Source of the DNA: Natronosalvus vescus | GTDB lineage: Archaea; Halobacteriota; Halobacteria; Halobacteriales; Natrialbaceae | NCBI RefSeq assembly: GCF_023973145.1 | Contig: NZ_CP099546.1 | Span: 310,001-374,000 of the forward strand | Length of the DNA: 64,000 nt | Direction: 5' to 3' | Shown: piece by piece, positions 40,552-44,727 of the stretch | How the letters are laid out: each line of letters starts with the position of its first letter | Numbering within the stretch: the first letter of the stretch is position 1 | Notes under the pieces: model-generated | Seen by the model: the letters and a program-made list of their open reading frames with translations, nothing else | Databases searched by the model: none | What the model was told of the DNA's origin: nothing | Program-made: the position numbers and the translations under genes

Positions 40552-42489
40552 TCAGATCGACGTAATTCGCGTATACCCCTCGTCGAGCGCCTCTGCGTCC
40601 TCTGGAAGCAGCGCCGTCACGACGGTCTCAGCGTACTCGCTGAAGTAGTCGACCAGGCGGGCGATTCGGTTTGAGTCGATCGCCTCGAGCGAGTCGAGCA
40701 GCATGAACGGTACCTTTTCGTACACGTCGTGAACGAGGTACCCAGCGAGCGCGAACACCAAACCTGTCACTTCCCGCTCACTCTCACTGAGGTGATCGAT
40801 CGTGTCCTCGTAGGTGTGGCCATCCTCCGCCTGCCTGACGATGTGGAGCTCGAACGTCGGCCTGTCGACGTGCCTGCGCCCCTCCCTGACCGTCTGCTCC
40901 GTTCGCTCGATCCAGATCCGCTCGATGTTCTCGTACTCGAGCACGTCGAGGACGGCAGCCATGTGTTCGTTGAACGCATCCACCGATTCGCGCTCGAGGC
41001 GGTCGATCCGCGTCCGCAAGTCGGTGAGCCGCTCCGAGACGGCGTCCCGTTCGGCCTGGAGGTCGTCGACGCGCTTGAGTTCGTCCTCGGTTTCTTCGAT
41101 TTCGGCTTCGACGTCTTCGAGGTCGTCCCGGAGCTGGCCGAGACGGAACTCGAGTTCCGTGACGTTCTTCTGGCGGTCGAGCGTCTCGCTCTCGTCTTCC
41201 TGCTCGAGTTCTTCGACCGTCTCCTCGAGTTCTTCGACCGTCTCCTCGAGTTCGTCTTCCCGTTCCGTCAGCGTCTCGATGCGAGCTTTCCGATCCTCGA
41301 TTTCGGTTTCGGTCTCCTCGAGTTGCCGATTCACCCGCTGTCGGCGCTGTTTCGTCTGGCGTGCCTCACGGAGCGTTTGCTTTCGGTCGTCGATTTCCTG
41401 GCGAAGCTGATTTCGTTCCTGGACTTTCTCCTGTCTGAGCGAGCGAAGTCGGTCGATGGTCGCTTCGATCTGTGCAGTGTCGACTTCGGTTCCGCACGTC
41501 CAGCAGACGACCGTCCCGTCGTCGGCTAACAGCTGGTCGGTGAGTTCGCCCTCCTCGTCGTCACTGAGCGCCGCCGTGATCTCGGGGTTCGTCCCATCGA
41601 GCATCTCCTCGTTGAACTGGATGATGCTCTGGAGCTGTGTCGTCTCCGAGTCGAGGTTCGAACGCTGTTCGCGAAGCGTCTCGAGCTCGTGTTCGATCGC
41701 GTCCGGATCCGTCTCGAGCGCATCCGGCAGTTCCTCGAGCTCCGCCGTGAGATCCTCGAGTTCGGATTCGAGCGTGTCGATGCTCCGTCGCTCGGTTTCG
41801 AGCTGGAACTCGGTCTCCTCGAGGTCGCCCCGAGCCGACTGGAGCTCATCGAGTTTTGCGTCGAGTTCGTCGTCGTCTTCGTCGTCGGCCTCGGCTTTCT
41901 TCGCCTCCAGGTCGGCGCGGCTCTCCTCGAGTTCGGCCTCAGTCTCCTCGACCTGCTCGCGGAGCGATTGGCGGCGTTCCTCGAGCGAGGGGAGGGTGGA
42001 CTTCATGGACGTCACCCGGTCGATCTCCTCGTCGAGTTGGCGCTTCTCGGTTTCAGCCTGGTCGATCTGGGCGGTGATCTCGTCGACGTCGACCGGCCGC
42101 ATGATCACTTCGCGTAGATCTTCTTTCTGGCTGACGGCCCGGCGAGCGGTGTTCGACTCGAGCAAGAACGCAAAGAGATTCGCCAGCGTCGGGTCGTCGA
42201 GATACGGATTGCCTGAGCTGACGACCTGGCCGCTTCGCCGTTCGAAGTGACGTTCGTACGTTTCGCCGCCGATCTCGAGTCTGACTGAGCCGGACTCGGC
42301 GTCGGCTTTGAGCGAGACCTGATCGCTGCCGAGTGCGCCCATGATCGACTGCAGAAAGGAGGTTCGGTTCGTTGCATTTCGCCCGGTGAGGATGTTCACA
42401 CCGGGAGATAACTCGACCGTCGTCGAGTCGATTCCGCCGATGTTTTCCACGGCGAGCCGTGGTCGGGTCGTGGTTTCCCCTGAACTCAT
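40552..42489 (-). CDS. Archaea-specific SMC-related protein (Sph-like)
   Basis: The 645-residue protein has an N-terminal ATPase half with GRNATNRTS at the Walker A position, about 400 residues of coiled coil (heptad Glu/Arg/Leu-rich), a central zinc-hook-like CWTCG (C-x-x-C) near residue 345, and a C-terminal half with LSESE (signature) and FMLLDSLEAID at Walker B. It is an SMC/Rad50-like dimer with probable DNA or structural roles. The Walker A lacks the usual G-K-S/T, and Walker B has D-S instead of D-E, as I recall for this family. rdfA would lie immediately upstream but for the IS element at 42571-44094. Confidence 0.85.
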   Translation of the reverse strand: MSSGETTTRPRLAVENIGGIDSTTVELSPGVNILTGRNATNRTSFLQSIMGALGSDQVSLKADAESGSVRLEIGGETYERHFERRSGQVVSSGNPYLDDPTLANLFAFLLESNTARRAVSQKEDLREVIMRPVDVDEITAQIDQAETEKRQLDEEIDRVTSMKSTLPSLEERRQSLREQVEETEAELEESRADLEAKKAEADDEDDDELDAKLDELQSARGDLEETEFQLETERRSIDTLESELEDLTAELEELPDALETDPDAIEHELETLREQRSNLDSETTQLQSIIQFNEEMLDGTNPEITAALSDDEEGELTDQLLADDGTVVCWTCGTEVDTAQIEATIDRLRSLRQEKVQERNQLRQEIDDRKQTLREARQTKQRRQRVNRQLEETETEIEDRKARIETLTEREDELEETVEELEETVEELEQEDESETLDRQKNVTELEFRLGQLRDDLEDVEAEIEETEDELKRVDDLQAERDAVSERLTDLRTRIDRLERESVDAFNEHMAAVLDVLEYENIERIWIERTEQTVREGRRHVDRPTFELHIVRQAEDGHTYEDTIDHLSESEREVTGLVFALAGYLVHDVYEKVPFMLLDSLEAIDSNRIARLVDYFSEYAETVVTALLPEDAEALDEGYTRITSI

Positions 42490-42577
42490 TATCGACCCTT
42501 AGAGAACGATGTACTTATAGACCGTCCCTTTTTCCGGGCGACCGTATTGGAACGATTATACAGAATCGAGGAGAATA

Positions 42578-42597
42578 CCTGACCCTTTAGGGTCAGG
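42578..42597 (+). repeat. Left-end hairpin of the TnpB element
   Basis: Perfect 8-bp inverted repeat with a TTTA loop, immediately before GATGAATCCGACAAC. IS200/IS605 family transposases recognise subterminal hairpins like this. Confidence 0.75.
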
Positions 42598-42712
42598 ATG
42601 AATCCGACAACACCTCCACTGTCCACCGTCGATAACGAGGCCGGATATCCACTATTCACAATCCAAAGCTTTACAATAAGATCAATTATAAGCTATTATA
42701 TAGGCGTTCAGG

Positions 42713-44031
42713 GTGTTGGAAGTCCATCGTACACATCGAGCGAAAATCCTCAACCACTCACAAGTGGAACGGATGCTCGACCGGCACGGATGGTCGGCCA
42801 GTAAACTCTGGAACGTCGCTACCTACCACTCCCGGCAAGTATGGGAGGAGACGGGCGAGATTCCCGACCACGGCGATCTCAAAGACGAGTTGAAGACTCA
42901 TCCAAAATACAAAGGACTGCACTCGCAGTCCAGTCAGCGCGTTCTGGAGGAGCTCGCTGAATCCTTCAACTCGTGGTACGGAAAACGCAAATCCGATGAC
43001 CGCGCATATCCGCCCGGCTACCGCAAGAAAAACTACTACGACTCACAAGGCCGGCGCGTTCACGAAGAACACCCGCGTAGCAGGTGACGTGGAAACAAAA
43101 CGGCATCCGCCACGACTCGAAGAACAACCGTTTTCGGCTCTCAAAAGGCGCGAATCACAAGGAACACCCAAAAGCGTGGGAGTACATCCTCATCGAGTAC
43201 GAAACCCGCCCTGGCATCACCGTCGAGAACGTACAGCAGGTTCGTGCTGTCTACGACCGAGCGAAGGGGCGGTGGGAACTGCATCTCGTCTGCAAAGACG
43301 GGATCGAGACGCCCGCTGCACCCGGCACCGAGTCGGCTGGTGTCGACCTCGGTATCTGTAACTTCGCAGCGGTCGCATACAGCACCGAGCAAGCCGACCT
43401 CTACCCCGGCAACCGCCTGAAACAGGACGGCTACTACTTCCCGAAAGAGATCGCCAGATGTGACAACTCAGGTGGCAAAGCAGCCACCAGACACCACCAC
43501 ACGTGGTCGGAACGCCGCACCCACTTCTTCCACAGCCTCGCAAAACACATCGTAGAGACGTGTATCGAGCGTGGCGTGGGTCGAATCAACGTCGGGAAAC
43601 TCTCTGGTGTTCGAGAGGACGAGAACGGTGACTCGAAAAACTGGGGTCGCCATGGCAACCTCGACCTGCACGGGTGGGCGTTCGACCGCTTTACGAAGAT
43701 TCTCACCTACAAAGCGAAGGTTGCGGGTATCGAGGTCGTAGAAGTGTCCGAACGCGACACGAGTAAGACGTGTTGTATCTGCGGGAGAGAAGAGGATAGT
43801 CAGCGTGTCGAACGTGGACTGTACGTCTGTGAGGGGTGTGATGGCGCGTTCAACGCTGATGTGAACGGGGCGGAGAACATCCGTCTCGATATCAATGAAA
43901 GTAACTCCGAGTCTTCGGCCAGTTTGGACGAAGATAGGAGTACCGGCTGGTTGGCACAGCCCGGAGTCTACCTTCATGACCTCTCCCGAGGATTCCAACC
44001 TCGGGCAGAGGTGGTAGACTGCAAACCCTAA
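42713..44031 (+). pseudogene. TnpB family protein, split by a one-base deletion
   Basis: From GTG 42713 the frame encodes 124 residues (VLEVHRTHRAKILNHSQVER...) ending at HPRSR-stop. The next frame, from GTG 43084, continues the same protein (TWKQNGIRHDSKNN) for 315 residues to 44031. Comparison with the remembered family sequence (HPRST-VTWKQ) indicates one missing base near 43082. The second part has the RuvC-like GVDLGICNFAAVAYS, zinc ribbon CCICGREEDSQRVERGLYVCEGC and third-site FNADVNGAENI. The position usually holding the RuvC-II glutamate reads NVGKLSGVRED. Probably inactive as encoded. Confidence 0.85.
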
Positions 44032-44094
44032 TATCCCAACTCAGCGGTGCGAAGCCGTGGGATTCCTCCGCGTTCCCGCGGAGGAGGATGTCAA
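44032..44094 (+). ncRNA. Right-end structured RNA/hairpin of the TnpB element (candidate omega-RNA end)
   Basis: Downstream of tnpB, GTGCGAAGCCGTGGG and a perfect hairpin at 44065-44084 (8-bp stem, TTCC loop) end in GATGTCAA. In IS200/IS605 elements the guide-RNA scaffold runs through the right end, with the guide derived from flanking DNA. Transcription is not shown by sequence. Confidence 0.5.
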
Positions 44095-44127
44095 AACTCC
44101 GTGCCGTGATCGCTGATCGACGAAGGG

Positions 44128-44727
44128 TTACTCCTGTCTACACCGACACCCACCACGCTCGAGAAACGTCCCGACGTCGTACTGTTCGCCACAGTCTTCA
44201 CAGAGAACGTTCACGTCGACGAGGACGGAGACCGACCCGCTCTCGAGGGCGTCGGTTTCACTGTATCGCGCGATGGTGTCTTCCGTTACTGCGGTTAGCC
44301 GACTCGAGAGGCGCTGGATGGAGTCGGCATCCCGCTCGAGGCGATCCTCGAGGGACGTCCGCTCTGAGGGCTTCTCGGCTCCTCGATCCGAGGTCAGATA
44401 GGTGTGGACGGCCTGGTGGGAGACGAACTCCGTGCGGAGTGTGTCGACGTCGATGCCGGCCCGCTCGAGTTCGCGTTCGGCCTGTATGCGCATCCCCGCA
44501 CTCACGTCGTCGTCGGTGAGCAGTCGGTGAGTGTTCTCGACTTCGCCGTCGAGCGGAGAGAGCCCAGCCCGATTCATCCGCTCGTCGAGCAATCGTTCGT
44601 TGAACCGGGTCGCGAGGGTTCGCAGACTCTCGCGCTCGTAGCCCTCCCCGAGCCACCGGTGCTCGAGCTCCTCTCCAAGGGACTCGAGGTCGTAGGTCTC
44701 GACGAGACGGGCGATTTTAGTGGGCAT
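44128..44727 (-). CDS. rdfA: Rod-determining factor RdfA
   Basis: The 199-residue protein starts MPTKIARLVETYDLESLGEELEHRWLGEGYERESLR. Key segments are LATRFNERLLDERMNRAG, PLDGEVENTHRLLTDDDVSAGMRIQ and FVSHQAVHTYLT, which I recognise as the RdfA family required for rod shape in Haloferax volcanii. A C-terminal C-x-x-C...C-x-C cluster (VLCEDCGEQYDVGTFLERGGCRC) is a likely zinc site. In other haloarchaea, from memory, it neighbours the SMC-related (Sph3-like) gene; here a TnpB element lies between. Confidence 0.82.
   Translation of the reverse strand: MPTKIARLVETYDLESLGEELEHRWLGEGYERESLRTLATRFNERLLDERMNRAGLSPLDGEVENTHRLLTDDDVSAGMRIQAERELERAGIDVDTLRTEFVSHQAVHTYLTSDRGAEKPSERTSLEDRLERDADSIQRLSSRLTAVTEDTIARYSETDALESGSVSVLVDVNVLCEDCGEQYDVGTFLERGGCRCRQE

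Follow-up and report, generated by a model that had tools for sequence, protein, structure and literature searches.

A tnpA-less TnpB element inserted between rdfA and an SMC-related gene of Natronosalvus vescus, with the predicted promoter of the latter left in place

The window analyzed here, a stretch of 64,000 nucleotides from the haloarchaeon Natronosalvus vescus (NZ_CP099546.1, positions 310,001 to 374,000), carries a TnpB element between a gene for a protein of the rod-determining factor A family (rdfA) and one for an archaea-specific SMC-related protein of the Sph family (ASRP), in the order ASRP gene (minus strand), element (plus strand), and rdfA (minus strand). As far as the sequence tells, this is a real, private, and ordinary insertion, and the functional claim attached to it in the first-pass annotation, namely that it uncouples the two genes and alters the control of cell shape, is unsupported.

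The identities that the same annotation had given to the two flanking genes are borne out by profile searches: the 199-aa product of rdfA (44128..44727, minus strand) scores 256.7 bits against PF21811 (cut-off 27), and the 645-aa ASRP (40552..42489, minus strand) 703.8 bits against NF045487 (cut-off 300), so that each lies above the cut-off of its family. Their separation by the element, put earlier at about 1.6 kb, measures 1638 bp between the stop codon of rdfA and the start codon of ASRP, with the genes in the order described. The rdfA gene is 65-86% identical to its counterparts in seven congeners. A domain search detects a NurA domain in the gene downstream of the rdfA-ASRP locus, and the same NurA-domain gene is found 3' of the ASRP gene in three of the congeners (G002, G006, and G007; L055-L057), which extends the synteny beyond the pair itself. 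The locus resembles rdfA-sph3 (HVO_2174-HVO_2175) of Haloferax volcanii in that an RdfA family gene adjoins an ASRP/Sph gene, but differs from it in that the TnpB element splits the pair and in that no ddfA was identified adjoining it, the neighbor being the NurA-domain gene instead. The match to HVO_2174/HVO_2175 is one at the level of the families, and the counterpart could be a paralog. The same genome has a second RdfA (C1:2043738), also with an ASRP neighbor, in the order smc>rdfA; this second pair is diverged and lies at about 5742-8283 of L235 (G000:C1:2038000-2050000). The claimed role of both genes in cell shape agrees with H. volcanii, where rod shape needs both rdfA and the SMC-like gene, a requirement shown in that species only (PMC10869688).

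Comparison of copies delimits the element to 42556..44094 (plus strand), from TTATAC at its left end to TCAA at its right. The match to two further copies of this genome breaks off exactly at 44094, and the six copies reaching the left end (two in the N. vescus genome and four in two congeners) agree from TTATAC onward and differ before it. Of the bounds originally drawn, 42571-44094, the right one is exact, whereas the left end lies 15 bp further out. TTATAC itself (42556..42561, plus strand), shared by all six copies with unrelated sequence before it, is a probable target/TAM and may be part of either the target or the element. TCAA is found at the right end in 13/13 copies shown, in three of them within flank past the aligned match; the right ends of IS608 and ISDra2 likewise read TCAA. 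The structured ends postulated earlier are recovered in DNA folds as subterminal hairpins at 42578..42597 (z -2.2) and 44064..44085 (z -3.4), both on the plus strand. A TATA-like box, TTATAA, read directly in the sequence at 42686..42691 (plus strand), stands 27 nt before the GTG of tnpB, to be seen alongside the generally known spacing of archaeal TATA boxes. No tnpA is present in the element; the genome contains five Y1 TnpA matches, three without an internal stop and two with a stop inside. Elsewhere the genome also harbors a full copy that is 96% identical and a right-end fragment of 360 bp that is 99% identical, and related copies occur in 115/125 family genomes and among plasmid records (97 of 72,556). 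The element is best classed as an IS200/IS605-type (IS1341-like, tnpA-less) TnpB element and belongs, in decayed form, to a family widespread among haloarchaea. With the IS1341-type (tnpB only) haloarchaeal IS200/IS605 elements with a sotRNA/omega-RNA (RF02656, sot0042) it has in common TnpB domains, end hairpins, a candidate omega-RNA region overlapping the 3' end of tnpB, many copies, and the lack of tnpA; unlike that reference, it has a frameshifted tnpB and an RF02656 score below the gathering score.

In 7/7 congeners rdfA and ASRP stand in tandem, in that order, with spacers of 130, 171, 142, 101, 102, 364, and 59 bp, and the TnpB element is missing from the spacer in all seven congeners searched. 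Once the element is subtracted, the spacer in the window comes to about 99-105 bp, the range reflecting whether or not TTATAC is counted. The spacers of these element-free relatives are short (59-364 bp) rather than large, in keeping with the earlier view of the gap in the window as the work of the element. Among the genomes seen, i.e., the seven congeners, the insertion appears private to this one; a search for another genome from this species found none. An empty site would show whether the insertion came without a target-site duplication. The exact one at rdfA-ASRP is not readable, the congener spacers being too diverged at the junction; for the second copy (L083), the alignment with relatives holds through the left flank as far as the junction, whereas the right flank is too diverged, and the flank of the G006 copy yields no clean empty site in the matches listed. 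By eye, an inverted-repeat-like stretch can be made out in the 364-bp spacer of L060 (G003:C72), possibly a further small insertion at this position.

Adjacency of the two genes in other haloarchaea, stated in the first-pass annotation, is supported by the congeners and by a published survey that reports 42/54 RdfA and 42/50 SMC-like proteins as adjacent (PMC10869688). Our own survey covered 71 RdfA loci (11 named and 60 other ones, a subset of all RdfA matches that leaves out L043, the same place as L059), of which 44 have an ASRP partner nearby and 27 have none in the stretch, with ASRP absent from those 27 by a purpose-made profile as well; two of the loci, L107 and L119, are identical in the upstream sequence shown and may not be independent. 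Tandem rdfA>smc order prevails among the 44 pairs (36 pairs, with gaps of 61-364 bp), the others being convergent (4), divergent (3), or smc>rdfA (1). The short gaps of the tandem pairs would allow read-through; with 8/44 pairs convergent, divergent, or reversed, co-transcription is not a general trait.

The ASRP gene has a predicted TATA box, TATAAG, at 42514..42519 (minus strand), the first base of which is 30 nt before the ATG, and TATAAA or TATAAG is conserved at -30/-31 in its own genome and in 7/7 congeners. Across 37 tandem pairs, including that of the window, TWTAWR is found between -45 and -19 in 20, where shuffling gives an expectation of 2.4 and no more than 10 in any of 1000 shuffles, with 17 pairs not matching this strict pattern; ASRP starts in the survey were projected from alignment and then refined for this promoter analysis. 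A TATA box at -30 fits with the 72% of protein-coding transcripts reported as leaderless in H. volcanii (PMC4983044). A gap of 36 bp separates the element from the ASRP TATA box downstream of it, and comparison of the joined flanks with the congeners indicates that the segment from about -40 to the ATG is kept, aligning with the closest of them. ASRP is predicted to have its own conserved promoter, untouched by the insertion; such a promoter for the SMC gene was recognized in the first-pass annotation as something that would speak against its proposal. For the CsmR site TATCAN4TGATA (PMC13286277), the best match has three mismatches in the spacer of the window, four upstream of rdfA, three to four in six congener spacers, and two in the element, and is uninformative. 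A sigma-70/terminator scan was set aside, its model being bacterial and the host archaeal.

Within the element, a 1-base deletion at 43082..43083 (plus strand), at a base present in 8/8 other aligned copies, splits tnpB into an N-terminal part of 124 aa (42713..43087, plus strand; frameshifted, from the ORF list, with NF040570 at 48.9 bits) and a C-terminal part of 315 aa (43084..44031, plus strand; PF01385, PF07282, and NF040570 at 137 bits), with the GTG start of the second overlapping the TGA of the first. This deletion had gone unremarked in the earlier annotation. The window copy has no intact tnpB reading frame, which bears on activity and is not a criterion for membership of the family, and its tnpB is read as a pseudogene with one base lost. 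In the second full copy of this genome a single-base deletion breaks tnpB elsewhere (43027 equivalent), and the G002 copy is broken at a third position (43101 equivalent); the tnpB of the G006 copy, L077, is intact and encodes 439 aa. The RuvC-II region, INVGKLSGVRED in both the window's C-terminal part (43084-44031) and the TnpB of L077, has no glutamate where the canonical one would stand. The glutamate may have shifted, or the site may be inactive; a literature search for a rearranged TnpB catalytic site found no paper.

Among 75 related tnpB copies, 71 are near full length; 13 of the latter are broken by a frame switch or a stop, with a frame switch in 10, one of which, that of L212 near codon 400, may stem from the alignment itself. 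This count is exclusive of L084 (same genome and match figures as L078, and left out of the tnpB alignments as well), L167 (same place as L077), L079, and the diverged or partial copies of the own genome (L003-L006). In 6/10 frameshifted copies the switch lies between codons 100 and 150, a span picked after seeing the data, and the simulated chance of such clustering is 0.024 for 11 events, 0.013 for 10 copies, and 0.002 for eight single-lesion copies that we selected. The clustered copies, namely L083, L168, L086, L181, L228, and that of the window (43027-43162 equivalents), have independent single-base frameshifts. The clustering is suggestive only, and a mutational cause suffices for it, given the slippage-prone A runs nearby. 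Frame switches in this span leave the C-terminal RuvC part open; it would be very surprising if a TnpB so split, or truncated at its N terminus, functioned with its omega-RNA in a form that does not cut and that is tolerated or favored.

An omega-RNA (sotRNA) region resembling RF02656 is detected at 43899..44085 (plus strand; cmscan E 1.1e-16), its 68.3 bits falling short of the gathering score of 88, which one of seven related loci reaches. On the TnpB model (PMC8612924), and with a length of about 20 nt assumed, the flank at 44095..44114 (plus strand) would be placed as the guide of this RNA, leaving 13 bp between its end and the rdfA stop. As this putative guide lies within the spacer, short of rdfA, it would address the empty site only.

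These features bear on two departures from the reading of the element as a decayed insertion. One is that the element encodes an intact TnpB and that the frameshift arose in sequencing or assembly, for which the lesion, a single-base deletion, and the like deletion elsewhere in the other full copy of the genome would be suitable material; we consider it unlikely, as the deletion at 43082 is outside any homopolymer run and other copies of the family are read intact. The other is that the element has been kept as a host regulator, its omega-RNA or split TnpB acting on rdfA-ASRP via the local guide. A recognizable omega-RNA region, two open tnpB halves, and a GTG/TGA overlap permitting coupled translation would accord with such a role, but the guide sits outside both rdfA and the ASRP promoter, a canonical guide would match the empty site only, the element is absent from the locus in 7/7 congeners, and a frameshift is present in the genome's other full copy too, all of which makes the idea highly improbable.

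The proposal that rod/disk control in this strain is changed through an uncoupling of rdfA and ASRP by the insertion draws on the conserved adjacency of the two genes, seen in the congeners, in the 71-locus survey, and in the published one (PMC10869688), on the need of H. volcanii rods for both genes, and on the 1.5 kb of antisense sequence and the strong hairpin added just past rdfA. Set against the intact, conserved ASRP promoter, the 8/44 pairs that deviate from the rdfA>smc tandem elsewhere, and the second RdfA-ASRP pair of the genome, either pair being a possible match to the H. volcanii shape pair, it seems to us distinctly unlikely. With the conserved promoter of the neighbor intact, and its TATA box at -30 in place, the sequence gives no reason to expect an altered cell shape, and no evidence for uncoupling was found. 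Deletion of csmR in H. volcanii raises both sph3 and rdfA (PMC13286277), which indicates that some co-regulation exists, and such shared regulation of rdfA and sph3 does not require a single transcript. The element could have displaced a regulatory site located more than 67 bp upstream of the ASRP gene.

We propose instead that a tnpA-less IS1341-like element inserted beside TTATAC in the roughly 100-bp rdfA-ASRP spacer, on the opposite strand, downstream of the rdfA stop codon and upstream of the ASRP promoter, probably mobilized in trans by a Y1 TnpA, and that its tnpB has lost one base, the ends and the omega-RNA region still being recognizable. An insertion so placed keeps both coding sequences and the ASRP start signal, and its effect on expression should be near neutral; at most, read-through from rdfA to ASRP would be lost and convergent transcription toward the 3' end of rdfA added. 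A tnpA-less insertion, its tnpB broken, that spares both genes and the ASRP promoter to near-neutral effect is very probably the correct account. The idea of uncoupling, plausible as it was, is hereby settled as unsupported, the insertion being real, private among the genomes seen, and one that spares a conserved promoter. The ASRP/Sph genes beside rdfA have, within the genus and in many relatives, a predicted TATA box of their own at about -30, and for this reason a single shared promoter does not explain the adjacency of the pair.
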